Source of the DNA: a virus
Length of the DNA stretch: 44,506 nt
Virus record (IMG/VR): IMGVR_UViG_3300040801_003302
Coordinates: 1-44,506 of that record
Reading direction: 5' to 3' (one strand)
The position numbers were made by a program, and so were the translations under genes. Positions within the stretch are counted from its first letter, which is position 1. The number at the start of each line of letters is the position of its first letter. Of the stretch, positions 6,652-39,065 are shown piece after piece. The notes under the pieces were generated by a model. That model was not told the DNA's origin. It was given only the letters and a program-made list of their open reading frames with translations, and searched no databases.

Positions 6652-6669
6652 TCCAGTAAAGGAACGAAC

Positions 6670-15844: not shown

Positions 15845-18800
15845 GCAGACCAGAAAACCTTGAGCGCAGAGAAGACCTTGAACAACCTACACTTCGCCGC
15901 CCGGCACAGCAGCCTGAGCAGCGAGTTCAACAGTCTGAGCCTGTAACTCCTCAGCGGGAACTCCCCGCTAAGGATCGTGCACTTCCGCCTGAAGTCCCGC
16001 CGCAGCAGTCCCAAGACGGGCTGTTTGACGCTATTACTGCTGGCTACCGCAGCACCCGAGCCTCGACGGAAGCGTCAAAGCTCTGGTCGCAGGCGCGGCA
16101 AGCAGAGTTGCGGGGTGACATAAACACATCGCAACGACTGAAAAATCAAGCTATGGTCCGGATGCGCGACGCTGAACGCCTGCGCGCGTCTACGAGCAGC
16201 ATCGCAGAAGTAGACTCTCTCGGTGGCGTAATCAGTTACGCTGGAAGTCTTATCGGGAGTTCGGCCGAATCTGTAGCACAAAGCACGATTGGTGGTGCAG
16301 CTGGTTCCCTGGCAGCCGGAGCAGTTACGAATCTGACTCCGCTCGGTCGACTAAAGAAACTCTCCTCAGCAATCCAAACCGCCGGTGGCTTTGCCGGGGC
16401 GATCGCGCCCCAGGCCGAAGCCGTCAAAGGCGGGATTGCTATGGCTCAAGATCTTGATCCAGTGATTGGAGCACGTCCAGTTGAAGAGAGAGAACGTGCA
16501 GCAGATCTGACAGCTGCAGGTTCTCTAGCTCTTGAGGGTCTAGTTCCAGCGGCAGTGGGTGGCCGAGTTGCAAATCGTATTCGTGCTCGTCGTGCACAAC
16601 TTCAAGGACGCCCGCTGCCCGCAGGCCGGGTAAGTCAGGCTGGTCGGTTAGGTCTGGACAGCCTAGAGGAAGGTCTGACTGAATTGGGTCAAACCAACCT
16701 TGAACAATTTGCGCTGAGTCTTCAGAACGACGAGTTGCCACGGTTTGCTGGCCTCACTGAGAACATTGATGCTTTCTTGGGCGGCGTAGCTGGAGGAGCC
16801 ATTGGCAACGTCCAGGGACGAGTCATGTCTGGCATTGTGGACGCAGCTTCAAACCAGATCAACCGCTTGGACGACGGCGACCGCTGGACCGAAATGCGGC
16901 AGCTGGATGAAGCTGCTGGACGCGGTGAAATCAGTGCACCACTCAACCATTTCCTGGGTGTCGGTATCCCGAAGTTGCCTGGAAGCCGTGGGCTCTTCAT
17001 GCTCGTCAACTCGAAGTCAAAGCTGAGTCGCCTGCCGGACATTATCGAGTCCAACGGAGGCGACGCCGAACTCGTTCGAACGTTGCGTACTCTGCAACAG
17101 GACACAAACCTGGAGAACGTAACCGAGTCCATGCAGGCGTTTCAGGAACGCGATGACATTTCTGATCGCACTCGTCAGACGGCATTTAAGCTGGTCGATC
17201 TCATGGAGAGTTTCATGGGTGCGCAACTGCTGGCGCAAAACCCAGGGAACTACGACCTCCTGAAAGACGAGAGCACGGAAATCCGCAAGACGTTCAACAA
17301 GCACATGAAACGTGCTCAGCGATTGATGCGCGACCCCCAACTGCTCGGCAGTGTGGGCGCTGACACCATCAACAACCTGCTGGAACAGATTACGCGCGGT
17401 GCCGAAGTCACAAAGAATCCGGAGCAAGCGAAGGTCTATGAAACCCACCAGGAAGAGATTACTCGCGAAGCTGCCGAGGGAGCCGCGCTAGCTGGCGAAA
17501 CCGTATCTGATCCGGCGGATGTGGAAGCGGATATTGCCCGCAACGTGTTCGAAGGGCAAAGCGTTCAAATCTACGACGACGCATCTTCTATTGAGGACGC
17601 CATCAGTCCCCCCGATCTTTTGAACCAATTTACGCCGGTCACTTACAGCAAAACTCCGGGGATCAAAAACCAGAACCAGATCATCCCGTTCATGCCTGGC
17701 ACGCTTGAAGAACGGGTGATGCTGAAAAAGATCCTGCCGGAAGACCCGAACATGCGTCTTTATGGTGAGTACGTTACTAACGACGACGGGACAAGCGAGT
17801 TTCGCAGCAATGCTTTCGGCACGCTCGATCCGTCGCCTCGCGACGTCAGCAGTGTCCGCTACGAGAACTGGTTCGACTACGCTTACGAGCGAGCGAAGCA
17901 AAATGGTTTCCGTGGGACTCGCGAGCAGGCAGCTGACCTCGAAGCAGCTCGACTCCTGGAGCACTACGAGGAACGTACGCGCAGCAACAATCAGTCCCCG
18001 GGTCCCAATCGTGATGCAACTGTTGCGCACCACGAAGAGATGATTGCGAAACTCCGGTCTGCACTCAACTCAGGCGACGCAAACGGGACTATTAAGTTGC
18101 TGAACACGTTCCGGGTACCACTGATCCGGAAACAGATGTACGAAGACGCCGGTGCACAAAAAGGTGAGTTCTACTCAGATGCGCAACTGTCAGCACTGCA
18201 GCGACCGCTCCAGGGAGTATTCAACCGGACTAATGAGCAACGAGCAGAAAGCCGTCGGAATGGTATTCCTGTCCTTTTTCGCCGTTCAAGAGCAGAGATA
18301 TCTGACTTTGAACGAAAGAACGACACTGATGGTGGCGAATTTTACGTTGCCTGGCTTTCCCGTAGCGAGATGGCACGAATGGAAGGTCGCCGTGCACCAG
18401 AGTACGAAGGTGATCTCCAAGGCGAAGGACAGCAAAAGAAAGAGCGTCCTATCCAAGAGCGGATCAGCTCTGCAATGGGCCGCATTCTAAACCGACCAGA
18501 TGTTGTTGGCATTGCTGCTGTTGACCCGCAGACTGGCGAACTCATGCGTGAGAAGCTGGAAGACGGGCGGCTGACCAACACGCCGCTAGTCCAGGCTGAA
18601 GACGGGAGCTTCGTACCCGTCAACGCTGAGAACTTCGACAAGATGCGGACGACGAAACTGGCGCCTCGCATCAACTTTGATTTCGGCAATTACTCATCTG
18701 GTCCCGACGGACGGCGCATTGGCTCCGGTCCGTACAGCTCCGACGCTGCCAAAGCCGACTACTACCGTGAGCAAGAACTGCTGGTGCAGGAACAGCAAGC

Positions 18801-21800
18801 CCGGTACCGGGCGCTTCGTAACGAGGCACAGAACTACCTCCGCAAAGAGTTGAATGCGATCGAAGGCCGGTACGGCGAAGTTTCGGATAAAGTCCTAGGT
18901 ACAATCGACCTGATAGCTGAAGGGCAACTCAGTGAGAATTACCAGGCGCGAACTGAACTCTTGTCGGAACTTACTGAAAAAATGTATCAGGAGTACGACA
19001 AGAAAAAGTTTAACTCCGTGTACCAACTGCTAGAGGCGGATAACAACAGCGCCTTTGCAGAAGAGATCACGATGCTTTCGGACATTGCAAATGCAGTGTC
19101 CAACACGCAGCGGTGGCTGCAAGCAGCACTTGCTGCTCAAACTCCAGAAGAGCACAGCATCGTCGAAACGATGGATGGACGGCTGACTGGCGACACGCGC
19201 AAGATCATGAAATACGTGATTCGCGAGTTTGCATCAGACGGCTATGCAGTTCGGGAAATGATCCGCACGCTGGACCAACAAATTCGCGAAATTCGTACGG
19301 AAGAACGTACGTACCTTGAACGCTCGGAAGCAGGTGAGGCGGCAAGTGGCACCGAAGTCCGCTTTGACTTCAGCTCCCTGGAGCAGAAAGCAAACCGAAG
19401 ACGCGCGAGTGCTGTGCGCCGGATCGAGAAGCGCCTGAGGAAGCGCGTCAAAGATTCCAAGGCTCGCAAAGAACTCGCTGAAGAAGTCGTGGCTGCTGCC
19501 CAGCGCATGGCAACAGATGAAGCTACGCTTGACTACAACTTTTGGAAAGAGAACAGCGAGGAAGCAGAACAGGAACTGTTCAAAGACCTCAACCTAGTCA
19601 AAATGATTCGTAGCCATCAGCAACAAGCGATGGACGCGAAGGTAGTGCAAAAGATCGAAGCCATTGGCGTCGAGTTCTCGCAGCTTCAAGACATCGTCGG
19701 ACAAGAGCTTGCAAAAGAGCGGCTTGCGGCCAGTATCTCGCAAAACGACAGTCTCAGCGGCCTGGACAGCGATGCAGCCAAGACTGTACGCGCACTGTCA
19801 GGCCGCGAAGCTGCTGCTACGCAAACTGTGGGACAACTGCAGCAACGTTTTGACGAATTGCGTGAAGCCATTACAGAACGCGGCAAAGCTGTCCTCCAAA
19901 TGGAGCAGGAGATCCAGGACACTATCAGTGACCTGTTTCCCGACGGTATACCCGCAGATGCGACTCCTGCCCTGGCCAGGCCAGCGCAAGAACGCGAGAC
20001 TGACGCCGAACTGGTTTACGAGATGCAGCGACTCCAAAAGCAACTCGACCAAGCAGCTGAGGAACTCGACGACATTCGCTTTCTAAAAGACAAGCTCCTA
20101 AAAGAGCGGCACGAAGTGAAACGTCGTGCAGTGTCCGGGATTCCTCGCAACAAAGACGTCATCAATCTTCAAAAAACGGTGGCAAGTCTGACAACAAATG
20201 CCGAGATAAGCGACGCTGTGCGGGCGCTGGATGGCGAAACTCTTCTTGAACGACAGCTGCCCAAAGTTGAGATTGTTCGGCCAACTAGAGACGAACCTAG
20301 CGCGGCTGTAAAAGCAATGCAGAAGGTGCGAGAGTACGGCCGGAAGATGGCTGCTGTCATGCGCGAAGAAGAGTCAGGGCCAGTCCTTGATGTGATTCGC
20401 CGCGCTGGTGCACTCGTTACTGATCGTACCAATGGTATCAACGTAAAATTCCAGAATCTCGACCCGCAGGACTCGGTAGTCTTTCTACTGGACAGCATGC
20501 CTGCGGAGAACAGCGCCCTCTATCGTCAGATGGAAGCAGCAAAAAACGCTGGACTGACTATCGTGCTGGCGAAGGATTCCCAGATCAATAAGGATCGGCA
20601 AGCCAAGTCTGCTTTCGTAACTTTCATGCAACGCAAAGGCTACTCAAACGTAGCTTCACATGAACAAGTCTGGGTGCCCAACGATAACCATCCAGCTTTG
20701 TCGCATGAACGCTATGCAGATTTTCGCCGTCGTCTTCAGGAAATGCAGTTTCAACAGGGGCAATTCCGCGAGGCTCTTACCAAACGGAAAATTCTCGACG
20801 CAGACAACCTGTATGTGCAGGCGCTCCGGTGGCGATTTGCTGCAGCAACCAACCAGACTCCGTTTCTGAACGACAGCGGGAAGCGGTCGTTCAATTTGAG
20901 TTCTGCTGACAAAAAACTAAAAGAAGAACGCGGGATCGAACTTGAGTGGTTCGACCAGGACGGATTTACTCCCCGTGTTCGCGTGACTTTCACGCCCGCC
21001 GGGCGCGCTCGGCGTGCTGAGCTGCTGGGCGACCCCCTCAGCAAGAAAGAAAAGAAGGCGAAAAAAGGAAGAAAGAAAAAAGAAGGTAAAAAGAAGGCTG
21101 AGTCGATCGGAGAACAGCAGGACAAGGTCGAAAAGAACGCGCAAGAGCACTACCGACAGTCAGCCATCAACACGGTGAAGCAAACCGATGCATTCCTGAA
21201 GGCCGCAATGGGGAGTCTGGGTGACCCGGCGTCGCCAGATAACCTCAAACTGCTTACGGAGTTCTTCGAAAGCTGGGGAGTCTACACGCCAGCTGAACGA
21301 CGTGCGCGGGCAGATTTGAACCGCGCTCTGTTGCGCAACAAGCGCGTGCTTGCACAAATCCGCGCGCTTACAGAGCAGGGTGACGGCGAAGGCGGAATCC
21401 TGGGCCTGTCAAAAGAGCAGGTACAGGAAATCAACCAAAACGAAAATGCATTCCTGGCATACGCCTACCAGCTCTGGTCGATTGGTGCGATCCGCGTAAC
21501 GCCAGAGACGAACAACATCTTCAAAGAAATCCTCCGTAAGTTCCTGGGATTGTTGAACATTACAATGTCTTCGGAGTTCGTGAACACAATGTTCACTAAC
21601 ATGAGCCAGGGACAGATCCTGAATCGCAAAGACATTCCGGCATTCTACAAGCGTTCCCAAACTGGGACCGATGAGTACGTCGCTAGCATGGGCAAGCTGC
21701 TCCGCGAACTGACAAAACGTTCGGTGCTGACCAGCGCACAAGTGATTGCTCGGCTTGACCCCGAACTGAGCGAGCGTTTTGCCAAACCGGAGTACGCCAC

Positions 21801-23580
21801 TGGGACGGTAAAAAACCGGGACTTTCTCAATAAGCGGCAGCGTCAGAGTGACTTCTGGATGAACCGGTTTCAGACCAAAGTCGCGGAAAAGTTCACTGAA
21901 GAACAGCTGCAAGAAGGCTGGGAAGACTTCAGAGTCAACGGTCCCAACGCACAAACTGCTGCTGGCAAACAGCTCATGCGGTTTGCAGACAGCTTCTATC
22001 GCTACATGGACAGTCGCGGCACGCGCCTTCGGATTCGGAAGAAAGACGGAAAGTCCGTCACTGTGACCCCGAACGCGATCAAGTGGCGTGCACCAGCCGC
22101 GTGGGACGCAAAATACATCCGAGAAAACCGCGATGAGTTCTTCAACCTACTGACAAAGAACGGCTTGAGCCAAGACGAGGCTACGTCGTTTATCGACTCC
22201 ATCAACTGGGCAAACGGCCAGGTGTCGTTCCTCGACTCCAAGTGGGATAAGGAGGCCTGGGCGTTCACCAGAGATGACTCTCGCCCTGGCACTGGCACGC
22301 TGAGTAACTACAGCCAAATCATCAACGGCGCCAACTCACCGGAGTTTGCCAAGTTCCTGCACGACGACGTCCAGTTTGCCTTTGGACGCATGATTCAGCA
22401 AGGCGTGCACAAAGCAGAGTTTTCTCAAGTCTTCGGGTGGAACGGTCGCGAAATTGAAAAAGCGCGGCTGCTTCTCGAAGCCAAAGGCATGAGCGAACCA
22501 GAACTTGCGTACTTCGACCGCAGTGTGGACGCGCTGCTTGGAAATCTGACTTACAACATGAACCCTCGGCTCCGGCAGTGGGTCGGAAACGTAGTCTCGA
22601 TCCAGAACATGTCGATCTTGCCGTTGATCATTTTTTCCTCGATCCCTGAGATCTGGGGTAGCTCCCTGGCAAGCGGCGAACTCAAGACTGCCTACGGATC
22701 CCTGAAGTCCGGTGCCGCTGAGATTATGAACTCCTTCTCCAAAGAGAAAGACGGAACAGAAAAGATGGCGCGGCTCATGGGCGTTATCAGCGACGACGTG
22801 ATGAACAACCGCATCTCGGACACTTACAACGAGATGATGATGGGCACGTCAATGAAAAAGCTGAATCAGTCATTCTTTAGATTGACTGGAATTGAACAAT
22901 GGACGAAGGGACTTCGCATTGCAGCGATGCATGCGGGCATTGACTACATTGTTACTCACAAAGACGACGCAAAAAAACTCGCGCCACTTAACATCACTCC
23001 AGAAGATGTTAAGTTCCGCAACGGCGAACTCATTATTCGCTACGGAGATCCTGATGACCCAATGGTGCACGCAATCACGACGTTTGTTGACCAAAGCGTC
23101 TTGCGTCCTCAGTCGCAGCACCGCCCGGCCTGGGGTAGCGATCCTCGTTTTCTCCTGGTCTGGCACTTGAAGCAGTTCACTTGGGCTTTCCACAACGTCT
23201 TTACGAAGAGAGTGTGGGACTCTGCGTTTTCACGCGACGCTGGGGAGAGAGTCAATTGGGCAGTCATCGCGGCGTACGCAATGATGGTCCCGACTATCAT
23301 GATCTCCGATCTAATTAAAAACACGATACTCCCAACGTCACAAGCCTACGATGCTGCATCGTTGGGAGATCACGTCGTAACTGGTGTAACTCGCTCGGGG
23401 ATCCTGGGGCTGGGTTCACTCGCTGCAGACGAGTACGCGTCGGTAGCGCAATATCACGATCACATTGGGGCGAGTTTCCTCGGCCCAACGTACAACCACA
23501 TGCAGGAGTTTCTGACCGGAAACGAACTGAAAGGAATCGCCCGGTTAACGCCGGGGTGGGTAATATGGAACCGCTTCTGA
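15841..23580 (+). CDS. Giant internal virion / ejection protein (2579 aa)
   Basis: The largest gene of the window, starting in an ATGA overlap. The N-terminus is Pro/Gln-rich. Residues ~115-210 and ~305-330 are Gly/Ala-rich amphipathic segments that could enter membranes. Long coiled-coil stretches lie around 1050-1500. A Rossmann-like segment at ~1537-1600 (beta SVVFLLDS, helix, beta TIVLAKD) may be a small nucleotide-binding fold. A lysine-rich patch occupies ~1735-1755. Near the C-terminus, hydrophobic segments at ~2254-2275 and ~2472-2495 flank the block WHLKQFTWAFHNVF, reminiscent of the C-terminal part of large phage ejection proteins. I see no polymerase or lytic transglycosylase motif. 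It probably crosses the host envelope with the DNA. Confidence 0.6.
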   Translation: MSRPENLERREDLEQPTLRRPAQQPEQRVQQSEPVTPQRELPAKDRALPPEVPPQQSQDGLFDAITAGYRSTRASTEASKLWSQARQAELRGDINTSQRLKNQAMVRMRDAERLRASTSSIAEVDSLGGVISYAGSLIGSSAESVAQSTIGGAAGSLAAGAVTNLTPLGRLKKLSSAIQTAGGFAGAIAPQAEAVKGGIAMAQDLDPVIGARPVEERERAADLTAAGSLALEGLVPAAVGGRVANRIRARRAQLQGRPLPAGRVSQAGRLGLDSLEEGLTELGQTNLEQFALSLQNDELPRFAGLTENIDAFLGGVAGGAIGNVQGRVMSGIVDAASNQINRLDDGDRWTEMRQLDEAAGRGEISAPLNHFLGVGIPKLPGSRGLFMLVNSKSKLSRLPDIIESNGGDAELVRTLRTLQQDTNLENVTESMQAFQERDDISDRTRQTAFKLVDLMESFMGAQLLAQNPGNYDLLKDESTEIRKTFNKHMKRAQRLMRDPQLLGSVGADTINNLLEQITRGAEVTKNPEQAKVYETHQEEITREAAEGAALAGETVSDPADVEADIARNVFEGQSVQIYDDASSIEDAISPPDLLNQFTPVTYSKTPGIKNQNQIIPFMPGTLEERVMLKKILPEDPNMRLYGEYVTNDDGTSEFRSNAFGTLDPSPRDVSSVRYENWFDYAYERAKQNGFRGTREQAADLEAARLLEHYEERTRSNNQSPGPNRDATVAHHEEMIAKLRSALNSGDANGTIKLLNTFRVPLIRKQMYEDAGAQKGEFYSDAQLSALQRPLQGVFNRTNEQRAESRRNGIPVLFRRSRAEISDFERKNDTDGGEFYVAWLSRSEMARMEGRRAPEYEGDLQGEGQQKKERPIQERISSAMGRILNRPDVVGIAAVDPQTGELMREKLEDGRLTNTPLVQAEDGSFVPVNAENFDKMRTTKLAPRINFDFGNYSSGPDGRRIGSGPYSSDAAKADYYREQELLVQEQQARYRALRNEAQNYLRKELNAIEGRYGEVSDKVLGTIDLIAEGQLSENYQARTELLSELTEKMYQEYDKKKFNSVYQLLEADNNSAFAEEITMLSDIANAVSNTQRWLQAALAAQTPEEHSIVETMDGRLTGDTRKIMKYVIREFASDGYAVREMIRTLDQQIREIRTEERTYLERSEAGEAASGTEVRFDFSSLEQKANRRRASAVRRIEKRLRKRVKDSKARKELAEEVVAAAQRMATDEATLDYNFWKENSEEAEQELFKDLNLVKMIRSHQQQAMDAKVVQKIEAIGVEFSQLQDIVGQELAKERLAASISQNDSLSGLDSDAAKTVRALSGREAAATQTVGQLQQRFDELREAITERGKAVLQMEQEIQDTISDLFPDGIPADATPALARPAQERETDAELVYEMQRLQKQLDQAAEELDDIRFLKDKLLKERHEVKRRAVSGIPRNKDVINLQKTVASLTTNAEISDAVRALDGETLLERQLPKVEIVRPTRDEPSAAVKAMQKVREYGRKMAAVMREEESGPVLDVIRRAGALVTDRTNGINVKFQNLDPQDSVVFLLDSMPAENSALYRQMEAAKNAGLTIVLAKDSQINKDRQAKSAFVTFMQRKGYSNVASHEQVWVPNDNHPALSHERYADFRRRLQEMQFQQGQFREALTKRKILDADNLYVQALRWRFAAATNQTPFLNDSGKRSFNLSSADKKLKEERGIELEWFDQDGFTPRVRVTFTPAGRARRAELLGDPLSKKEKKAKKGRKKKEGKKKAESIGEQQDKVEKNAQEHYRQSAINTVKQTDAFLKAAMGSLGDPASPDNLKLLTEFFESWGVYTPAERRARADLNRALLRNKRVLAQIRALTEQGDGEGGILGLSKEQVQEINQNENAFLAYAYQLWSIGAIRVTPETNNIFKEILRKFLGLLNITMSSEFVNTMFTNMSQGQILNRKDIPAFYKRSQTGTDEYVASMGKLLRELTKRSVLTSAQVIARLDPELSERFAKPEYATGTVKNRDFLNKRQRQSDFWMNRFQTKVAEKFTEEQLQEGWEDFRVNGPNAQTAAGKQLMRFADSFYRYMDSRGTRLRIRKKDGKSVTVTPNAIKWRAPAAWDAKYIRENRDEFFNLLTKNGLSQDEATSFIDSINWANGQVSFLDSKWDKEAWAFTRDDSRPGTGTLSNYSQIINGANSPEFAKFLHDDVQFAFGRMIQQGVHKAEFSQVFGWNGREIEKARLLLEAKGMSEPELAYFDRSVDALLGNLTYNMNPRLRQWVGNVVSIQNMSILPLIIFSSIPEIWGSSLASGELKTAYGSLKSGAAEIMNSFSKEKDGTEKMARLMGVISDDVMNNRISDTYNEMMMGTSMKKLNQSFFRLTGIEQWTKGLRIAAMHAGIDYIVTHKDDAKKLAPLNITPEDVKFRNGELIIRYGDPDDPMVHAITTFVDQSVLRPQSQHRPAWGSDPRFLLVWHLKQFTWAFHNVFTKRVWDSAFSRDAGERVNWAVIAAYAMMVPTIMISDLIKNTILPTSQAYDAASLGDHVVTGVTRSGILGLGSLAADEYASVAQYHDHIGASFLGPTYNHMQEFLTGNELKGIARLTPGWVIWNRF

Positions 23581-30666: not shown

Positions 30667-31434
30667 TTAGGGTTTTTCTTTCGCTAAATACAGGTCGGAC
30701 GGGCATACTCCTGTCCCCGCGTTTGATCCAAAGTTGCACCATTTACAAGAAAATGGCGATGGAGTGGCACGAAACTCAATTTCGTTCGTGATGTTGTGTC
30801 CGAAACCGTTAAATAGCTTCATGAAATTGAGACCAAAAGAACGTTTGTACGTCGTTCGAGTGATCTCTTTGGCGTCGCAGTACCAGAACTCGACTGTGAT
30901 TTCTTGCAGCTCGGGGTACATGAGAAACGCACAAAGTTGATACAGCTGAGCTTGAGTTTGATGCGAGATTTCGTTGCCGCGTTTGCGGCCGGTCTTGAGG
31001 TCAACAAGCAATGCTTCAGTGCCGCCTGGACGAATAATTAGCAAGTCGACTTTAAGTCGCAACCAGGCGTCAGAAGATCCCCACGCAGTCTTTTGCCAAT
31101 CGACGTCAAAAGCCCATTCTTCTTCCATTTCGACATGGTAGATGTCGCCTTCATACATCTCGCGAGCGATGTTGTAGTGCGTAGCAAACGGTTCGAGTTC
31201 GTCAACGAGTTCGCATTTGCCACGGATGAAATCTTCTCCAGCTTCGTGAACTCGCACACCGCGCACCAGGGGATGTTCGTCTTTCCCTGGTGGCGGGTCG
31301 AGCGGTGGCTTCGGTTGCTTTTCGACTTTTTCGTAGTAAACCTTGCGAGGGCAAGAAGTGAAGTTTTTATATGTCGAAAAAGACCAGCTGGTTACCGGTC
31401 CTAATTGGTGTTTATCCACGCATGTTCTCCCCAT
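30667..31434 (-). CDS. Cas4/RecB-like PD-(D/E)XK exonuclease with Cys cluster
   Basis: A 255-residue protein. Features in order: a Cys in TSCPRK (~28), H-x-x-GE (~63-67), LKVDLL (~128), the catalytic LLVDLKTGR (~143-151), the QAQLYQL helix (~163), and three Cys in CKWCNFG...GVC (~230-244). One N-terminal Cys plus three C-terminal Cys around a RecB-type nuclease core is the Cas4/AddB arrangement that holds an iron-sulfur cluster. Such phage enzymes resect DNA ends for recombination. The start may be ATG 31434 or, with better SD spacing after GGGGAG, GTG 31419; both overlap the upstream VWA gene. Confidence 0.8.
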   Translation of the reverse strand: MGRTCVDKHQLGPVTSWSFSTYKNFTSCPRKVYYEKVEKQPKPPLDPPPGKDEHPLVRGVRVHEAGEDFIRGKCELVDELEPFATHYNIAREMYEGDIYHVEMEEEWAFDVDWQKTAWGSSDAWLRLKVDLLIIRPGGTEALLVDLKTGRKRGNEISHQTQAQLYQLCAFLMYPELQEITVEFWYCDAKEITRTTYKRSFGLNFMKLFNGFGHNITNEIEFRATPSPFSCKWCNFGSNAGTGVCPSDLYLAKEKP

Positions 31435-32540
31435 GGCATTGTAAGATCGTCATTGTCGACAATGATCCAGAGAACCGGATAGTCAGGCTGATCTTGCGGA
31501 CAGGGGCCTTCGCCGTCTGTCAGCATGATGACAGCTGACGGAGGATCATCGAACTCTTGGTCGATATATTCAAAGACGGGAATGAAATCCGTACCGCCTC
31601 GTCCCAAAATTGGTACGTCTTCGGGAAACTCGTCCTCAGTCTCGTACACTGCTACCGGTTTCTTAACGTTAGTGTCGTGTTGCATCAGTGTAACTGAGTT
31701 GGGTTTGATAATCGAGGTTATGTAAGCAACTTGGTTGATTACCATCGAGACCATGTCGTTGCTCATAGATCCGGAAACGTCGATTGCGCAAACGAAATCG
31801 CCGGTGAATTTAGGAACCGGAGTGGGTAGGTGAATACCCATGCTGAGGTAACGCTTGTTGGGACGAGTCCAAGTTTTCTTGCCAAGACCAGGAACGTCCA
31901 TGAAGTTGTAGAGCACGTCTTCCCAGGGGAGTTTGGGTTCCAGAATTGCTTTGAACAGTTGCTCCAGTTTGCCGGGCATGTTGCCAGCTTTCTTGCTTTC
32001 CTGGGCTGCGTGAGCAACGGCTGCTTTCCATTCTTGTTCGTTGAACACGTCATCAGCAGCAGACGTGCCTTCTTCTGGTTCGCCAAGCTCACCACAGAAC
32101 GTTCCTTCGGGAGAAGGCGTTCCACCTTGAGGTTGTTCGTCTTTGAGTATGGCGTAGACTTCTTCCGCTGTAACGTCAGAAAAACGATCGTCGATCAACG
32201 CGCCGTCAGGTAGTTGAACTTGCGGAATGTCCAAAATGATGTCGTTAATGGCGTAGTCGGTGGCTTGTCCCCAAAGATTTCGATCGCGACCACCATGACG
32301 ACTTGGTGAACAGTGCAGCATTGCACAGTGCAAGACTTCGTGAATGATTACGCCGGCAATCTCATAGACGTTTAAGTTTTTTACAAAGTCAGGGTTGTAA
32401 TAAATGACTTTGCCGTTGGTTTGCGCAGTGGGAATATCTTTTTTGGGGTAGATGCCCACACGTGGAACCAAGCTGGCAAAGAACGGATTGGAAAACATGA
32501 TGTGGGTTACCGCTTTGGTAACCAATTCTTCAGGTGACAT
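31401..32540 (-). CDS. VWA-like metallopeptidase (DUF2201-type)
   Basis: The start is placed at ATG 32540 (MSPEEL), behind GGAG at 7 bases; a longer frame to 32588 would overlap the upstream gene more. Of 379 residues, the N-terminal part has HEVLH at 67-71, an HExxH zinc site, with further His and Cys close by. The C-terminal third is a von Willebrand A domain with the MIDAS motif DVSGSM (~250-255) and later Thr and Asp (TDF, TDGEG). This pairing is the DUF2201 architecture, usually encoded beside a MoxR AAA+ ATPase, as here at 34259-35323. The pair is expected to assemble or remodel a target complex; the target is unknown. Confidence 0.85.
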   Translation of the reverse strand: MSPEELVTKAVTHIMFSNPFFASLVPRVGIYPKKDIPTAQTNGKVIYYNPDFVKNLNVYEIAGVIIHEVLHCAMLHCSPSRHGGRDRNLWGQATDYAINDIILDIPQVQLPDGALIDDRFSDVTAEEVYAILKDEQPQGGTPSPEGTFCGELGEPEEGTSAADDVFNEQEWKAAVAHAAQESKKAGNMPGKLEQLFKAILEPKLPWEDVLYNFMDVPGLGKKTWTRPNKRYLSMGIHLPTPVPKFTGDFVCAIDVSGSMSNDMVSMVINQVAYITSIIKPNSVTLMQHDTNVKKPVAVYETEDEFPEDVPILGRGGTDFIPVFEYIDQEFDDPPSAVIMLTDGEGPCPQDQPDYPVLWIIVDNDDLTMPWGEHAWINTN

Positions 32541-33363
32541 TTTGAAGCTCCGCGTTTGCTTTGTTGACGACGATCCGTCCTTCGTCAACAGCGAGTGGGT
32601 TGAACTTGGGCTTGCTTTCCGGATCGTACTCGGCCACTACTACTTTGTAGATGGGCGTAATAATGGGGCGAAGTTTCGCTGGCAAAGTCTCGTCGAGAAA
32701 AAGATCTTCGAGGTTATCGTAAAACCATCGAAACTGTTCCACAGTAGTCTCGCGAATCTTTGGTGAGTCGTGGAGAAAGTTGGCTGCGAGTTTTTCCACA
32801 AGTGTCCGGATCTGGCCAACCATATGTTGGTTCTGCGCATTGGTGCGCTCCTTGTTTTTTTGGTCGAACTCATTTTTTGCAGCTTCAGAGATGACGTCTA
32901 GTCGGAAGTCTTCACTTTTGCCTACAGGAATGAGATCGACGGTCATATGAAACCCAGCGCGAATTTCTTCTTCATTGGGAAAGTCTAAAGCGCGAAAGAG
33001 TCCGGCCTGGGTTCTGGCGAAGTCAGCTTTCATTTGCGGAAGTACTTCGCAAAGTCGATCGACTTCTTTGTTCATCTTTTCCTGGATAGACTGAAACGCA
33101 CGTCGGTACGGCAGGATCAAATTGGCAGGAAGAATGCGAATGCCGCCGTCGTACCAAGGCGCTGCCATGCGGTAATGAATCGAACGCATTTCACGCTGAA
33201 GTTTCTGAATGGCTCTGAGCTGTTCAGTTGGCAGACGCTTGCGCAGATAGCGCCCCGACTTGGTCGAGGCGCTAAACTGCGTGGCGACAGCTTGACTGGC
33301 AGCGTTGTCGGTACGCTCGTTGGTGAGCGAACCGATAGTGAGATTGACCAGTACAGCTTTCAT
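32530..33363 (-). CDS. Unknown partner in the MoxR-VWA block (277 aa)
   Basis: It starts at ATG 33363 with AAGGAG eight bases upstream. The protein is helical and charged. An S-x-S-x-x-x-SGRYLRKRL segment near residue 35 and a long helical stretch at 50-120 (AIQKLQREMRS...SIQEKMNKEVDRL) are the main landmarks. The shape is reminiscent of DUF3150-type proteins that accompany AAA ATPases and VWA proteins, but I cannot confirm this by eye. Its 3' end overlaps the VWA gene by 11 bases. Confidence 0.6.
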   Translation of the reverse strand: MKAVLVNLTIGSLTNERTDNAASQAVATQFSASTKSGRYLRKRLPTEQLRAIQKLQREMRSIHYRMAAPWYDGGIRILPANLILPYRRAFQSIQEKMNKEVDRLCEVLPQMKADFARTQAGLFRALDFPNEEEIRAGFHMTVDLIPVGKSEDFRLDVISEAAKNEFDQKNKERTNAQNQHMVGQIRTLVEKLAANFLHDSPKIRETTVEQFRWFYDNLEDLFLDETLPAKLRPIITPIYKVVVAEYDPESKPKFNPLAVDEGRIVVNKANAELQNVT

Positions 33364-33373
33364 TGTATGCTCC

Positions 33374-34249
33374 TTACTTGAGTTTCGCCTTGGCTGTAGC
33401 TGCAAGGATGTCGGAATCCGGCAGCATGTCGGCGTCGATGGTTTGAGATTTGCGGCTGGTGTTTTTGTGGAATCGTTCTAGCGTTTCGTCGCTGCAGTAT
33501 TCCAAAACTCCAGGAAAAATCTTCGCCATGCCGTTGAGTGAAGCACAATTTTTCCAGAGCTTGTCGAGGACATAGTCTTCGACTTTAGCCATGCGGCGAG
33601 CAGAACGCTGGAATTTGTCACGAACAGTAGCCAGGCCTTCGATCTTCATTGCCAACTCGTTGAGGCCTCGTTCATGGAGGTTTTCGACTGATATAGCTCC
33701 GGTGAAATCTTGGCGAGAGCGGTTGGCAGCGCCATACGAGTACAAGAATCTGTTGAGCGGGATGTAACCGTGATCAAAGCAATTCCCATCTTCGCTAATC
33801 ACGTCGAGTGAAAAACCAAGGAATGCAGTAACAGTGTTGTGCTCGTAACCAATGGCAAAGTAAACGCCTTTGTGTCGAATCTGAGCAAACATCTGATTGG
33901 TGTTAAGATTTGGAATTTCGATTGATTTCGTGAAATCGAAGTCACGGTCCAGGTATTCCCGGTTCATCTCGCCTTTGTCGCTCGATGAAAAAACACCGAT
34001 AGTGCCGCGTTTGAACTCTTCTTTGCAGGCGATAAAGTTGTGAGTATCTGCAGCTTGCAAGTCCTTAAATGCTTGCAGCAGATCCGTTTCGATAAACATT
34101 CCGTTCTCGAATGCAGTGTGTGCAAAAAGCTCAACAGTTCTTTCGAAGTTGTTATTGTCAACTTCGCGAACAATGTCAGAATCAACAAAGCTTTGAATGT
34201 TGCGCTTAATTTCGCCTTTAAGCGTTTCGGTCTTACGTACGAGAGCCAT
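33374..34249 (-). CDS. Unknown partner in the MoxR-VWA block (291 aa)
   Basis: It starts at ATG 34249 behind a very strong ribosome site (AAGGAGGAG), which suggests high expression. The protein is mixed alpha/beta, acidic at the N-terminus, with a Lys-rich C-terminus (ATAKAKLK). There are no catalytic motifs, membrane segments or zinc sites that I recognise. It lies between the MoxR-like ATPase and the 277-residue protein, with 10-base spacings on both sides. This suggests it is part of the same functional complex. Confidence 0.55.
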   Translation of the reverse strand: MALVRKTETLKGEIKRNIQSFVDSDIVREVDNNNFERTVELFAHTAFENGMFIETDLLQAFKDLQAADTHNFIACKEEFKRGTIGVFSSSDKGEMNREYLDRDFDFTKSIEIPNLNTNQMFAQIRHKGVYFAIGYEHNTVTAFLGFSLDVISEDGNCFDHGYIPLNRFLYSYGAANRSRQDFTGAISVENLHERGLNELAMKIEGLATVRDKFQRSARRMAKVEDYVLDKLWKNCASLNGMAKIFPGVLEYCSDETLERFHKNTSRKSQTIDADMLPDSDILAATAKAKLK

Positions 34250-34258
34250 AACTCCTCC

Positions 34259-35323
34259 TTAAAAAAGTAGTTTGCTGTTTTTGGTTGCCCACTCAGCAAA
34301 TTTGGGGTGATCGCTGACGTCATCGTGATTGCGAATGACGTCAGTCACGAATGCGCCCTGCATTTCCTTCGGCATCTTTTCCATGATTTCCATGGCAGTG
34401 TCGAAGTTGTTGTAGTCAGTGCGCTGTGCGATTGCTGCGGTCAGGGCATAACGAGTCTGCATCTCAGCCGGAACTTTGAAATCGCTTGGGTCTTGAAACA
34501 GCTTGTCTAGATCCGGCAGCTTGTCGTAGTACTGGATAAAACCCTGGAGTTTGGTCGCGGCGTGCAAACCAACGGAACCAGCGATCAGGGGAAAACATTC
34601 CTGGAATCTGTTGGTACCGAAATCGTTGAGAACGTCGGAAGCCATCTCCCAGGTACGCGTGGTGTGAAAAGCGTACGCGTTTTTGATGTACTGACGAGCC
34701 TCTTCGCTGTTTTCCTGGAAAGCGTGCAGCATTTCAGGTGCCCAGCGAACAAAACCGATGATAGCCGGGTGGAAACCGTTGGCTGAAGCATATGCGGCGA
34801 AGTCGTTTGTTTCCGTGCGCAAGTGCAGATGAATGAATCGGTTTTTGAGTGCCGATGCCATCTGATTGACCAGGGCCATATCAGTTCGATAGTTGCCCGC
34901 TGCGCATACAGTCCAGTTGTCGGGCAACTCGTACTCACCGAGCTTGCGGTCAAGGACAAGTTGATACGAAGCAGCCTGAACGTCGGTATCGGAGTTGGGC
35001 AGTTCGTCGAGAAACAAGACGCCGTCAGGATCGCCTTCGCGTGGCATGATGCTGGGCGGAATCCAGTCGACGCGCGGATTGTCGACAGTACCGTCGGGCA
35101 GTCGTGGCAAGCCACGAAGATCGACGGAATCGTACTGAGTGAGGCGGCAGTCGACCAGTTTGAGGCCTAAGCGGTCGCAGATCTGGCGCATGGTAAATGA
35201 CTTCGCGGTACTGGGTGACCCGTGAAGCATGAAAGCACGTTTGCGGCGGATGCAGTACTCGATATGAGGTACCGCCTCCGTCGGTGTGCACTCGACGTAA
35301 AGTGCGTTGGCTTGAATATCCAT
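34259..35323 (-). CDS. MoxR-like AAA+ ATPase (AAA_5 type)
   Basis: A 354-residue protein with Walker A GSPSTAKS at 35-42, where the usual GKS/T is AKS, a known MoxR-subset variant. The Walker B is VLFLDELPNSD at ~103-113, and a sensor region AAGNYRTD (~150) is followed by an NRF arginine-type segment (ALKNRFIHLHL). MoxR proteins are ATP-driven chaperones that work with VWA partners, and the VWA-metallopeptidase is two genes away. ATG 35323 lies behind GAGGAAGAC and follows the primase-helicase stop directly. An additional role for its C-terminal helical part cannot be told. Confidence 0.85.
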   Translation of the reverse strand: MDIQANALYVECTPTEAVPHIEYCIRRKRAFMLHGSPSTAKSFTMRQICDRLGLKLVDCRLTQYDSVDLRGLPRLPDGTVDNPRVDWIPPSIMPREGDPDGVLFLDELPNSDTDVQAASYQLVLDRKLGEYELPDNWTVCAAGNYRTDMALVNQMASALKNRFIHLHLRTETNDFAAYASANGFHPAIIGFVRWAPEMLHAFQENSEEARQYIKNAYAFHTTRTWEMASDVLNDFGTNRFQECFPLIAGSVGLHAATKLQGFIQYYDKLPDLDKLFQDPSDFKVPAEMQTRYALTAAIAQRTDYNNFDTAMEIMEKMPKEMQGAFVTDVIRNHDDVSDHPKFAEWATKNSKLLF

Positions 35324-37756
35324 TCAGTCTTCCTCGTCAGAGAGTGGAAAATAAATGCCGTACACGGTCTTACCGCGTGTTGGGCATTGGTGGTTAGCAA
35401 ACTCCATGCCTTGAGGAGACAGGAGCTTGACAAGCTGAGTTGCATTACGTGGTGGATTACCAGTTACGCAAGTCAGCAATGCACTGAGCTGAGTTGGACT
35501 GATTACATAGTCCTTTCCCGGCTTGATGTACTTCTCGTAGTGCTGCATGAACTCGTTAGCCATGAGCACCATGCTTGTCTTGGCCCCACTACCAGTTGTC
35601 ATTGCAAACTGTGTGGCGCCTTGTTCTTGTATTTGTGCGTGAATGCGACTGAGCATTTCAGTATCACCGTTGGAAATCTCCTGAAGCAACAGCGCACTTG
35701 TCGACTGGCTGTCGCGTGCAAGTTTTTCTTTAGGAGGGTTGTTCAACGGACTTGATACCTCTTCAAATTTAACTTTGCGTTGCAGCAGGTACTGGAGAAA
35801 TTCTGGGAGTCCCGCTTGTATGCCTGTGATCAACTGGGAAATCTTTTCTTTGCCACCCAACGCCGCTACTAGGGTTTGCTCTTGTCTCGGCGCAACGTTG
35901 TACCGGCGATCAGTGCGGCTGAGTCGCACTGGTACTGCTTTGTTAGAGCAAAAGATGAAATTGCAGTAAGTGCGCACTTTGCCGTGAGCTTTGTGGAAGT
36001 TGCGGCCGGTGACAAAGCGATCAGTGATCCAGTGTTTGAGTCTGGCTTCGTCAGACGCATTCATTTCGTTAGCGTCGGATTCGTCGACGACTACGATGAG
36101 CTTGTTTACGATCGGATCAGTGAACTTTTCTTGCAGCGTTTTGTTAGTCGTTGGACTCACGTTGTCGTTATGAAAAAGCGGTTGCAAGATAAATTCTTGT
36201 AGCAGACCTTTTCCAGTGCCTTCCACGCCATGGAAGATCCAAGCTGTTTCAGTCTTGTCGCGTTTTTGCACGATGTACGCGAGCCACGCCAGAAACTTGT
36301 CGTACTCCAAATCAGTTAGACCTTTAGGGTTGTTGGTCAGATGACGGAGCAGCGTTTCAATAGCAACTGGTACTTTGGGTTTGTCGTGCGATGTGGGTTT
36401 GATGTCTGTCGGTTCGTACGTGTTCACAACACGCTTGCCAACATCAATATGCGCTGCCAACTTGGGATTCGGATCCCAAATGATGTTGAAGTGCGGCAAC
36501 TGCTTGGCATTTTTCACGTTGGCAGGATTGTCTTTGAGCCATTGATTAATCAGGTTGTCAGGCAACGGGTCTGACAATTCCAGGCGCTTGAGTGGCAGCA
36601 CGCCGTTTTCATCCATTCGTTCAACGTTGGATCGAAAATCAATTCGAACCCAGTAGCATTTCATAGTTTTGGGATAGCGAAATGCAAACGCTACGTGCTC
36701 AGCCAAATCGTTTTGCGAAGTTGGTACTGGTTCTTCGACGTCGGGTTCCGAGTAATGTTGCTGGTAATACTCGGGTACGATTTTGTCTAGCGGATAGAGG
36801 GGTTCGTCTTTGAAGTTGTACAGCACATCGTGCTTGTCTTTGATGTAGTAGTAGCCCCAGGAATCTCCGCCGTTGAGATTTAACCGAACAAAATTCCCGT
36901 CTTCTTTGCGCCCAGTGACTTCAGCCGGTTGCGGCTTTTTGCACATGGGCTGAGAGAAGTAATTGACGTCGCGGCGTGAAAGACCAGCTTTGCCACGAAG
37001 CTTGTTAAAAATGTTGACTTTCTCTCGGTCGACTTCGTAACGCGCCATGGCGTCTTCAATCGACTGGATTGAAAGCGCGTCATTTGCTTTCTGAATGAAT
37101 TGCAGTCTTGGGTCGTCGTCTCCTTCGTGCGGGTCGCGAACTCCCGGCCCAAACTGCGGGGGCGCAATAAAGATCATCCGAGAGTTTTGGCCCAGCACTG
37201 GATCGAGTGGCCAGTGTAAAGAATTCATGCTGTTAGTCAGCGTGATTTTGTCTCTGAGTTTGCTGGCTACATTGAGGCCTGTAAGCCAAGTCTGAAGAGC
37301 GCTCGGTTCGATGGGCTCTTCCAGTCGGAAAAACAGATGCGCTCGCAACGATGTATCACCGTGCATGCGACTGGAAGACGAATACTGAAGAACGTAACTG
37401 GTGTCTTCCATACCAGGTACAAATTGAGTTAACTCGGTAACGATAGTGTTGTGGGTAAATCCCTCAACTCCGTCAAAGTCTAGACAAACCCATTGGGGGC
37501 AGTGGGTTTTATCGTGACGGCCATGACGTGACTCCGCTACGAGCGGTTGTTCAAATGCGCCAGTGAACATGCAATATCCGGGTAAATTCGAGTACTTGTC
37601 AATGGCGTTGTACAGATCAAGCGTCGACGCTATGGGAACTGCGACGCTAGACAGTTGACGGGGGTGTGGAGTTGGTACAACCGAGTCTTGATTGAATGTT
37701 TTCCCCAGGTGCAGGCCATTCGTTGACCTGAGGAACGTAATTTCATTTGGGGGCAC
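35324..37756 (-). CDS. Primase-helicase: AEP-type primase fused to SF3 helicase
   Basis: An 810-residue protein starting at GTG 37756 behind AAGGAT. The N-terminal region has an archaeo-eukaryotic primase-like core with VCLDFDG (Asp93/Asp95), followed by SSSSRMHG and HWPLDPVLGQNSRMIF blocks. The C-terminal part is a superfamily 3 (D5/DUF5906-like) helicase with Walker A GVEGTGKG (~512), Walker B LIVVVDESDAN (~555), motif C in NFIFCSNK and an arginine finger in RTDRRYNV. It would prime and unwind DNA at the origin and fork, together with the family A polymerase encoded downstream. The N-terminal primase call is weaker than the helicase call. Confidence 0.9.
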   Translation of the reverse strand: MPPNEITFLRSTNGLHLGKTFNQDSVVPTPHPRQLSSVAVPIASTLDLYNAIDKYSNLPGYCMFTGAFEQPLVAESRHGRHDKTHCPQWVCLDFDGVEGFTHNTIVTELTQFVPGMEDTSYVLQYSSSSRMHGDTSLRAHLFFRLEEPIEPSALQTWLTGLNVASKLRDKITLTNSMNSLHWPLDPVLGQNSRMIFIAPPQFGPGVRDPHEGDDDPRLQFIQKANDALSIQSIEDAMARYEVDREKVNIFNKLRGKAGLSRRDVNYFSQPMCKKPQPAEVTGRKEDGNFVRLNLNGGDSWGYYYIKDKHDVLYNFKDEPLYPLDKIVPEYYQQHYSEPDVEEPVPTSQNDLAEHVAFAFRYPKTMKCYWVRIDFRSNVERMDENGVLPLKRLELSDPLPDNLINQWLKDNPANVKNAKQLPHFNIIWDPNPKLAAHIDVGKRVVNTYEPTDIKPTSHDKPKVPVAIETLLRHLTNNPKGLTDLEYDKFLAWLAYIVQKRDKTETAWIFHGVEGTGKGLLQEFILQPLFHNDNVSPTTNKTLQEKFTDPIVNKLIVVVDESDANEMNASDEARLKHWITDRFVTGRNFHKAHGKVRTYCNFIFCSNKAVPVRLSRTDRRYNVAPRQEQTLVAALGGKEKISQLITGIQAGLPEFLQYLLQRKVKFEEVSSPLNNPPKEKLARDSQSTSALLLQEISNGDTEMLSRIHAQIQEQGATQFAMTTGSGAKTSMVLMANEFMQHYEKYIKPGKDYVISPTQLSALLTCVTGNPPRNATQLVKLLSPQGMEFANHQCPTRGKTVYGIYFPLSDEED

Positions 37757-38440: not shown

Positions 38441-38517
38441 TGGCGGGGGAGGTCGGATTCGAACCGACGACATTCAGGGTCAACACCTGCTGTTCTACCA
38501 AACTGAACTACTCCCCA
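38441..38517 (-). tRNA. tRNA-Gln-like gene, anticodon UUG
   Basis: Read on the minus strand from 38517, it folds into a cloverleaf of 77 bases including an encoded CCA. Acceptor is UGGGGAG / CUCCCCC with discriminator G; D arm is GUUC/GAAC with loop AGUUUGGUA; anticodon arm is GCAGG-UGUUGAC-CCUGA; T arm is GUCGG-UUCGAAU-CCGAC. Bases 34-36 read UUG, which decodes CAA (Gln). The U1, G73 and weak 1-72 pair are glutamine tRNA identity features. Odd points: base 33 is G rather than the near-universal U, the 27-43 pair is G-A, and 1-72 is U-C. The first bases contain the stop codon of the gene upstream. Confidence 0.8.
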
Positions 38518-39065
38518 TCTTCGAACTTGGGCAACAGGTCGTTGCCTTCGGGATATTCGCTTCCGAAGTAATACAAAAACATCGCGTTGCACATCATGTG
38601 TGCCCAGTGAGGTTGACCGGATTCAGGGTCGTTGTATTCGCCTTTGTCGATCGCGACAAGGTGGCGCATGTACGACGAGACACAGGTGCTCCATGATTGG
38701 CCTTTGGCCCAATTCCAGGAAGCGTATTTTTCTTGGCCGTATTCCAGAACACGAATGGTTCCTTCGATTACATCGTAAAACCCTTCGATGGTACACGCGT
38801 CTCCTACTGAGAACTCCATGGTTTTGACCAAGAGGTCTTTGAGTTGTTTATGGCTTTGGGTTCTCTGCAAATTACCCACGACGTGGTACAAGTGTTCAAC
38901 ACGCCACGAGCGGTTCACACCAACAGCAAACTCACGGCGCAGTAATTCCAATTGGTCACCCAGGAATAATGCGTAATTGGGTTTGCCACCATTGGCGCGT
39001 GCAGCAGATCCTTTTTTGTTGGAGTCAAGATCACCAACAGCCATTTTTAAGCGTTTTTCATTCAC
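38508..39065 (-). CDS. DUF5664 / MazG-like nucleotide pyrophosphohydrolase (dATP/dGTP diphosphohydrolase family)
   Basis: A 185-residue protein starting at GTG 39065, behind GGGAG, in a GTGA overlap. The C-terminal region KYASWNWAKGQSWSTCVSS, then RHLVAIDKGEYNDPESGQPH and AHMMCNAMFL, matches the phage DUF5664 family, annotated as dATP/dGTP diphosphohydrolase N-terminal domain and related to MazG. Such enzymes cut the beta-gamma or alpha-beta phosphate bonds of purine nucleotides and shape the dNTP pool; in 2-aminoadenine phages a relative (MazZ) serves base substitution. No PurZ or DatZ gene is seen in this window. The TAG stop lies inside the 5' part of the tRNA. Confidence 0.7.
   Translation of the reverse strand: MNEKRLKMAVGDLDSNKKGSAARANGGKPNYALFLGDQLELLRREFAVGVNRSWRVEHLYHVVGNLQRTQSHKQLKDLLVKTMEFSVGDACTIEGFYDVIEGTIRVLEYGQEKYASWNWAKGQSWSTCVSSYMRHLVAIDKGEYNDPESGQPHWAHMMCNAMFLYYFGSEYPEGNDLLPKFEDGE

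Follow-up and report, generated by a model that had tools for sequence, protein, structure and literature searches.

A phage MoxR-VWA gene module with a distant DUF3150 relative as a candidate AAA+ remodelling machine of mobile elements

MoxR ATPases and VWA proteins are physical partners in the NorQD, CbbQO, CobST and RavA-ViaA systems. MoxR-VWA pairs are also widespread in phages, where the CobST genes of viruses are often taken for a vitamin-B12 gene set. In the Schitoviridae, the N4 gp24/gp25 pair consists of an ATPase and a vWFA protein without assigned function (PMC2784036). A related arrangement occurs in mobile resistance elements: in R997 (SXT/R391) the order is ssb, bet, exo, a CobS-like ATPase, a 255-aa protein, DUF3150, a 146-aa protein, a CobT-like VWA protein with HExxH, radC and a primase-helicase. 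In SXT, deleting bet, exo, s067, s068 or s070 lowers transfer up to 10-fold (PMC2791158), and the operon, with SetCD as its activator, has been presented as a recombination system independent of RecA (PMC4344509); the SXT gene numbers were matched to R997 genes by inference from gene order. On plasmid pCAR1, a true DUF3150 gene is likewise flanked by the genes of a CobS-like ATPase and a CobT-like VWA protein, and DUF3150 relatives are found in approximately 1,200 plasmid records, mostly conjugative. The family is named in no paper of the literature we searched.

Here, we examined a viral DNA stretch of 44,506 nucleotides (hereafter the window), in which a sequence-only reading had placed a MoxR-like ATPase, two proteins of 291 and 277 residues (here X and Y) and an HEVLH/VWA protein in a row between a primase-helicase and a Cas4-like nuclease. 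All of its coordinates were correct on re-check (Table 1), and its description of a phage MoxR/VWA module with two partners inside a replication block was borne out, the partners being real. The four genes and both neighbours are all on the minus strand. The primase-helicase lies directly upstream of MoxR and abuts it, gaps of 9 and 10 bases separate MoxR from X and X from Y, Y and the VWA gene overlap by 11 bases, and the nuclease gene comes after the VWA gene and overlaps its end. MoxR, X and Y each have a purine-rich ribosome-binding site upstream. The polymerase, primase and nucleases share the strand of the module, while the structural genes are on the opposite strand; the window polymerase is closest to those of KPP25-like phages. 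Hallmarks of the Schitoviridae, the family in which the N4 pair is found, are a virion-encapsulated RNA polymerase and N4-type core genes. The VWA protein would have 395 aa if started at an upstream TTG.

Table 1 Features of the module, its neighbours and one further protein in the window
Feature	Position	Strand	Assignment and remarks
Primase/helicase, DUF5906 (VapE-like)	35324-37756	-	DUF5906 1.7e-18; phrog_24712 3.1e-107; DNA primase PHROGs; neighbour
MoxR-like AAA+ ATPase, 354 aa	34259-35323	-	phrog_1297, N4 gp24 family; putative motor
X, 291 aa	33374-34249	-	Probable divergent Z-family member
Y, 277 aa (ATG 33363 to 32530)	32530-33363	-	Distant DUF3150 relative; proposed third component of the module
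VWA protein, 379 aa (from ATG 32540)	31401-32540	-	Zincin-like N-terminal domain and C-terminal VWA; phrog_1314, N4 gp25 family
PD-(D/E)XK (Cas4/RecB-like) nuclease	30667-31434	-	PDDEXK_1 9.4e-16; neighbour, outside the proposed machine
2579-aa protein	15841-23580		In the window

The window MoxR carries Walker A (GSPSTAKS), Walker B (VLFLDE) and sensor-1 (AAGN) motifs and matches phrog_1297 at 2.7e-90 in the PHROG search. Its Pfam matches to AAA_5 and bpMoxR are below the family cut-offs (bpMoxR: 15.5 bits, cut-off 27), and the closest PDB relatives of its profile are midasin AAA modules. The VWA protein matches DUF2201_N (5.5e-41) and DUF2201 (5.4e-24) in Pfam and phrog_1314 (1.3e-94) among PHROGs, with HEVLH(CAMLH) followed by DVSGSM...GRGGT...LTD, so that both the HExxH site and the MIDAS are intact. 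Among its relatives, HExxHxxxxH is kept in 101 of 103, a set for which the HEVLH pattern helped pick part of the members (22 of the 23 sequences chosen otherwise have it), and D-x-S/T-x-S in all 103. The PHROG label of phrog_1314, HNH endonuclease, is ill-fitting for a protein composed of DUF2201_N and VWA. Because both proteins belong to the N4 gp24/gp25 families, the pair alone is not new, which in this respect corrects the earlier reading of the module as the best candidate for an undescribed system. MoxR alone is matched in 821 of 50,697 phage records. In the MoxR and VWA trees, the window is a long branch closest to Y-bearing loci and outside the Z clade; because this placement has no starred support, we draw no ancestry for the window.

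We show that Y, previously unassigned, is a distant relative of DUF3150 (PF11348). Compared profile to profile with PF11348 members, Y aligned over its full length (97%, E = 1.1e-10, 244 columns), versus 0.5% for Z, an unrelated control. The AlphaFold model of Y (pLDDT 83) has a phage DUF3150 protein as its top structural match in BFVD (TM 0.76, E = 2e-13), and no PDB match at E ≤ 0.001. The Pfam model search with PF11348 gave no match to Y at E ≤ 1, hence none reaching the gathering cut-off, and likewise none in the genome of L104, itself a Y carrier; no enzyme family was found for Y in Pfam. Plain tblastn with Y reached phage MinM2 (2e-12) and a Simplicispira plasmid (3e-15), and a profile of Y relatives, which includes the window Y as one row, scored Y at 2e-71 against 0.12 for the next best window ORF.

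X has a weak similarity to, and is probably a divergent member of, a family, Z, whose gene directly follows MoxR in related podovirus-like contigs. Against the Z-family profile, X scored 25.0 bits (E = 5.8e-6 among 5719 ORFs; 1.5e-4 with a broader profile), compared with 8.8 bits for the best of 5000 shuffles; the hhalign value is 86%, over just 39 aligned C-terminal columns. Conserved positions of X comprise an N-terminal M-x-x-V-R and a C-terminal LNxxxKxxP..E.L.R...K..R. X matched no Pfam or PHROG family at 0.05 or better, neither the phage nor the plasmid collection gave a hit to it, and its AlphaFold model (pLDDT 52) was too low to use; the Z protein of contig L059 likewise had no match in the phage collection. 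The Z family overlaps phrog_1965, to which X itself has no direct match. Relationships of Y to X (hhalign 9%) and to Z (the control value above) were ruled out. In L011, L015, L059 and 19 other contigs, Z fills the slot of X, and most also have relatives of the window polymerase, primase and nuclease within the contig stretches examined, the primase/helicase homologues among them; they differ in that Z has 212-260 aa and is weakly like X. Y was absent from the four whole records of this kind that were searched. Neither middle protein matches an ordinary structural or replication family.

Y co-occurs constantly with MoxR and VWA. Searches with Y only returned 13 viral and two chromosomal loci, and all 15 (about 11 distinct) have this order on one strand. 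In a search of 399 genomes from the order to which L104 belongs, three gave strong Y matches, one being the L104 genome itself, and all three have MoxR-Y-VWA on one strand. When loci were chosen by VWA, Y was present in 22 of 80, between MoxR and VWA in 12 and beside the pair in 10. Searches of whole records found Y in 10/10 Y-type records and in no Z-type or no-partner record, including the complete phages EcP1 and G; the distribution of Z was the reverse, and Y and Z occurred together in three records of one lineage. In most phages, the pair is accompanied by neither, by Y or by Z, with both in the window and one other lineage. Since N4-type and many other phages have the pair without Y or Z, Y is not required by all MoxR-VWA pairs. 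The sequence-only reading had held that its proposal would fail if the middle proteins matched ordinary structural or replication families or if related phages carried them far from the pair; no such family was matched, and Y accompanied the pair in every locus found with Y, so that this test did not refute the proposal. Single-protein pattern scans of IMG/VR with X, Y or the polymerase returned nothing, and profile-based queries were needed. Phage trios neighbour DnaB/TOPRIM primase-helicases, SNF2, PD-(D/E)XK, RecT/ERF and SSB genes, and one locus (L093) has the VWA-nuclease-SNF2 order of the window.

Overall, we consider it probable that the products of all four genes work as a single AAA+ remodelling machine of a mobile element, with the element's own replication or recombination proteins as candidate targets. 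A MoxR hexamer would serve as motor, and its partner, the zincin-VWA protein with the MIDAS, would hold the client. Y would be a third core part and most likely act as an adaptor or a structural subunit; X would be a second, lineage-specific adaptor in the slot of Z. A single complex is proposed because the genes co-occur and MoxR and VWA proteins are known partners elsewhere; that Y belongs to one functional machine with the pair is very likely, and X is fairly likely to be part of it. The client would most plausibly be remodelled, loaded or removed. A replication or recombination protein is the leading candidate, because the machine constantly sits in such gene blocks, although we put this at somewhat under an even chance. 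Early genes often lie in replication blocks, and such a position may not identify the client. Of the roles suggested earlier, host takeover and anti-defence found no positive support, and the neighbouring genes indicate replication and recombination.

For Y and X, we infer the role of adaptors and not that of clients. The CobST and CbbQO pairs do act on dedicated clients encoded nearby. The NorQD pair likewise does so (PMC9976466, PMC13036017), and Y and X could be clients or effectors that a MoxR-VWA chaperone matures or activates before they act on DNA or the host, which fits a slot filled by differing families (Y, Z and the SXT 255-aa protein), as expected of lineage-specific clients. However, Y/DUF3150 accompanies the pair in phages, plasmids and ICEs alike although the neighbouring genes differ, Y has neither an enzyme family nor a solved fold, and many phages retain the pair without Y or Z; we thus regard this alternative as rather unlikely. 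A cobaltochelatase helper, in which the pair would be CobS/CobT and boost host vitamin B12 synthesis with host CobN, is highly improbable. Such a role of viral CobST has been suggested in tailed viruses, haloarchaeal ones among them, and in Roseobacter phages (PMC8651126, PMC11288001), and the SXT relatives show sub-threshold CobS/CobT similarity in NCBIfam, but the window MoxR and VWA have no NCBIfam match, CobS (TIGR01650) and CobT (TIGR01651) included, and MoxR matches the CobS-type phrog_249 weakly (0.012). CobN was found in neither the window record nor 19 related records, though it could be host-encoded, ribonucleotide reductase was found in no searched record except phage G, and this reading leaves the constant third gene and the replication and recombination neighbours unexplained.

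Conflict systems (defence, inter-phage or anti-defence) in which MoxR-vWA is joined by a third component (Kaur et al. 2020, PMC7159879) share the motor and MIDAS logic, and the weak bpMoxR match could be seen in that light. Yet the third component differs, DUF3150 not being among those named (VMAP, iSTAND and others) in the parts of that paper on which we draw; the Pfam search found no VMAP, iSTAND or beta-propeller domain in X, Y or VWA, PADLOC matched none of the four proteins, VWA and Y have no added effector domain, and the module sits in a phage replication operon rather than a variable island. No conflict-system marker was found here, and a conflict role is improbable. Similarly, the viral MoxR and VWA-MIDAS proteins p618/p892 of ATV, with a reported role in tail development (Scheele et al. 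2011, as cited in PMC7911831), set a precedent for a virion-assembly chaperone, which we consider very improbable here: the module lies on the polymerase strand opposite the structural genes, and plasmids and ICEs, elements that form no virions, carry the trio as well.

The occurrence of the three-gene set in phages, conjugative plasmids and mobile resistance elements alike suggests a shared mobile-DNA machine, rather than a B12 enzyme or a one-off. Tentatively, MoxR-DUF3150-VWA may be an unrecognised class of AAA+ machine for mobile-element replication and recombination, common to lytic phages, conjugative plasmids and SXT/R391 ICEs, with some viral CobS/CobT B12 annotations belonging to it; in the four-gene window form, adaptors from two families without mutual relationship, Y and Z, would then share one motor. 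With a constant third gene, what was a loosely defined chaperone pair becomes a concrete candidate complex whose class of client can be tested, and the roles of N4 gp24/gp25 and the SXT core genes become directly testable by deletion and pull-down.

Compared with described systems, the window MoxR and zincin-VWA proteins are homologous to N4 gp24/gp25 (approximately 30% identity) and likewise lie beside replication genes; the EcP1 pair is adjacent, with Y and Z both absent from its complete genome in a whole-genome search, whereas two genes intervene in the window. The trios of Burkholderiales and Rhodovastum plasmids and of cyanophage MinM2 have the identical order, with all three proteins, including MoxR, homologous to those of the window, but no X/Z protein, the X slot holding other genes or none. 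SXT/R391 and pCAR1 share gene order, domain plan and DUF3150 in the Y slot, and SXT also has the extra 255-aa protein in the X slot, beside ssb-bet-exo; that protein was ruled out as an X or Z relative (hhalign 0.3% and 0.2%), and a by-eye resemblance to a WGR domain was dropped, as Pfam finds none. In both elements, the ATPase and VWA proteins are of the CobS/CobT-like branch and only distantly like those of the window. The hhalign value for the SXT ATPase and the window MoxR is 92% over 112 columns, a distant relationship, and no significant profile match was obtained for the VWA protein of SXT (2%); the likeness to SXT therefore rests on architecture, order and DUF3150. From NorQD, CbbQO, CobST and RavA-ViaA the window differs in its third component and in carrying no cofactor-insertion marker, while sharing the logic of a motor and a MIDAS partner with a third component or client.

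The four reading frames of the sequence-only reading were confirmed exactly. The minus strand encodes, one after another, primase-helicase, MoxR, X, Y, VWA and PD-(D/E)XK nuclease, with spacings of 0, 9, 10 and -11 bases from the primase-helicase through the VWA gene. In the MoxR protein, Walker A reads GSPSTAKS and Walker B VLFLDE, both intact, as is sensor 1; the VWA protein joins a DUF2201_N metallopeptidase-like domain with HEVLHCAMLH to a DUF2201 VWA domain whose MIDAS is intact. Since HExxHxxxxH is kept in 101 of 103 VWA relatives, a set picked in part by the HEVLH pattern but in which 22 of the 23 members picked otherwise have the motif too, the metal site is, on sequence conservation, under constraint; D-x-S/T-x-S occurs in all 103, and one plasmid homologue (L007) has lost the HE. 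Elsewhere in the window, the PF18909 protein is worth checking as a candidate for nucleotide-pool or modified-base functions.

Coordinates of the module, its neighbours and features observed at compared loci
Feature	Record or locus	Position	Strand	Remarks
MoxR	window	34259-35323	minus	354 aa
X	window	33374-34249	minus	291 aa
Y	window	32530-33363	minus	277 aa
VWA	window	31401-32540	minus	379 aa
Primase-helicase	window	35324-37756	minus	
Cas4-like PD-(D/E)XK nuclease	window	30667-31434	minus	
tRNA-Gln gene	window	38441-38517	minus	anticodon ttg
Protein with dATP/dGTP diphosphohydrolase N-terminal domain	window	38508-39065		PF18909, 2.2e-22
DNA repair exonuclease	window	3965-5158	plus	phrog_704, 4.3e-95; among presumed virion genes
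Y gene, one in-frame TAG in profile match	L057 (record G683, 165-kb virus)	10351-11226		
Y gene as two adjacent reading frames	L086	6511-7485		unsplit in near-copies L085, L089
SXT/R391 255-aa protein	L115 (R997)	6126-6893		slot that X has in the window
Z paralogue downstream of VWA	L026	5587-6432		
Z paralogue downstream of VWA	L069	7372-8244		
Z paralogue downstream of VWA	L015	9408-10298		

Phage MoxR-VWA pairs are already known. PHROG assignment places the window MoxR in phrog_1297 and the VWA protein in phrog_1314, the families of N4 gp24 and gp25; the annotation of EcP1 notes a similarity to these two for its gp33 and gp34. A roseophage paper entered both N4 proteins as function unknown (PMC2784036), and orf66 and orf63 of Bacillus phage 0305phi8-36 were described as two subunits of a MoxR-type chaperonin (PMC2147016). 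A tblastn search with MoxR matched 821 phage records, none of which reached 60% identity; N4-like podoviruses stood out among them. In profile comparison, its best solved relatives were the AAA modules of midasin, a remodelling ATPase bearing a MIDAS domain. We noticed that phrog_1314 is labelled 'HNH endonuclease', as are RefSeq EcP1 gp34 and Bacillus phage G gene 576; its members are zincin-VWA proteins, and the label looks wrong.

Both middle proteins had been regarded as unassigned, which no longer holds for Y. The Pfam model of DUF3150 (PF11348) did not match Y. In a profile-profile comparison, 42 Y proteins plus the window Y matched five true PF11348 members at 97% probability (E=1.1e-10, 244 columns), against 0.5% for the unrelated Z family, which fills the X slot in related podovirus-like contigs. 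The best BFVD match of a Y AlphaFold model (pLDDT 83, from 35 sequences) was a phage DUF3150 protein (TM 0.76, E 2e-13), and none in the PDB was significant. Taken together, these profile and model comparisons indicate that Y is a distant DUF3150 relative, its predicted fold unmatched among solved structures.

tblastn with Y also reached a cyanophage MinM2 protein annotated as DUF3150 (2e-12), in a locus ordered MoxR, 90 aa, DUF3150, three small genes and VWA, as well as plasmids of Burkholderiales and Rhodovastum, where ATPase, Y and VWA genes follow in this order, mostly as immediate neighbours, and each match their window counterparts. A Y-alignment search, with MoxR and VWA kept out of the query, recovered 13 loci in IMG/VR and 2 in GTDB genomes; MoxR, Y and VWA lie in this order on one strand in 15 of 15, near-copies included (~11 distinct cases). 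Among 399 genomes of one order, all three strong Y matches fell in trios, one in a genome already found. Y is present in 22 of 80 loci retrieved via VWA (between the pair in 12, beside it in 10), which is not a population frequency, the query having been built partly from Y-bearing loci. No Y was found in complete EcP1, in complete phage G or in those Z-type contigs that were searched whole. To the question of whether the middle genes stay with the pair elsewhere, the trios at all loci found through Y answer yes for Y, and gene order marks it as a conserved third component of the MoxR-VWA module. The idea of an undescribed system fails for the pair and may still hold for the trio and the four-gene form; in the open literature, we found no description of the trio and no paper naming DUF3150. 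The TAG in the L057 Y gene may mean that this phage is recoded or that the gene is broken.

Contigs sharing the window polymerase (~1e-100), primase (~1e-60) and nuclease carry Z, a gene of 212-260 aa, between MoxR and VWA. Against the Z profile, X reaches 25.0 bits (E=5.8e-6 in a set of 5719 ORFs), compared with 8.8 for the best of 5000 shuffles, -0.9 for reversed X and 6.2 for the next window ORF, and agrees with Z in N-terminal M-x-x-V-R and C-terminal helical segments. Because the evidence consists of two short conserved ends and a common gene slot, homology of X to Z is probable, not proven; the X AlphaFold model was too poor for use. Across 88 loci, 30 showed no partner, 33 Y only, 22 Z only and 3 both (L023, L025, L028); the window is an additional both-partner case, with an order unlike theirs. 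Z-type loci form a single group in the trees of MoxR and VWA (SH-aLRT 99 and 96), where the window sits on a long branch whose closest neighbours are loci with Y, a placement that lacks firm support. Most Z-type contigs have a Z paralogue (274-296 aa) downstream of VWA, and therefore two Z-family proteins around one pair.

MoxR proteins are AAA+ hexamers that remodel a client together with VWA proteins, as in NorQD (PMC9976466, PMC13036017). On the simplest reading, MoxR as motor, VWA as MIDAS partner and Y would form a three-part machine, with X as an added adaptor; Y and X may instead be clients. Primase-helicase, SNF2 helicase, PD-(D/E)XK nuclease, RecT/ERF annealing protein and SSB genes surround phage trios, and at one compared locus (L093) VWA, nuclease and SNF2 are ordered as in the window. 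Because of these genes, and the primase, nuclease, SNF2 and polymerase genes around the window module, our best, still tentative, guess is a replication or recombination protein as client.

Viral CobST have been read as vitamin B12 genes (PMC8651126, PMC11288001), a reading without support here: 20 records held no CobN, ribonucleotide reductase was absent from the searched records save phage G, and no CobS/CobT model matched. A defence system is disfavoured by PADLOC, which matched none of the four window proteins, and by the third components named in the consulted passages of Kaur et al. (PMC7159879), which are of other kinds. For a virion chaperone there is the precedent of ATV, as cited in PMC7911831, against which stand the occurrence of the trio on plasmids and ICEs and the position of the module genes apart from structural genes.

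True DUF3150 genes in chromosomal PF11348 matches are accompanied by an ATPase and/or zincin-like gene, these neighbours having been read partly by eye from adjacent frames. R997, of the SXT/R391 family, has the order ssb, bet, exo, ATPase, 255 aa, DUF3150, 146 aa, VWA, radC and primase-helicase, and pCAR1 has ATPase, DUF3150 and VWA; DUF3150 relatives occur in ~1,200 plasmid records, 993 of them typed conjugative. The R997 255-aa protein matched no Pfam or NCBIfam family. Transfer of SXT fell by as much as 10-fold when bet, exo, s067, s068 or s070 was deleted (PMC2791158), and the operon beginning at s089 was described as a SetCD-controlled, RecA-independent recombination system (PMC4344509); we infer from gene order how these gene numbers correspond to the R997 genes. 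With matches to AAA_5/CbbQ_C and CobT/VWA, the ATPase and VWA proteins of SXT are only distant relatives of the window MoxR and VWA, so that motors and partners from two branches are found in one and the same three-part plan.
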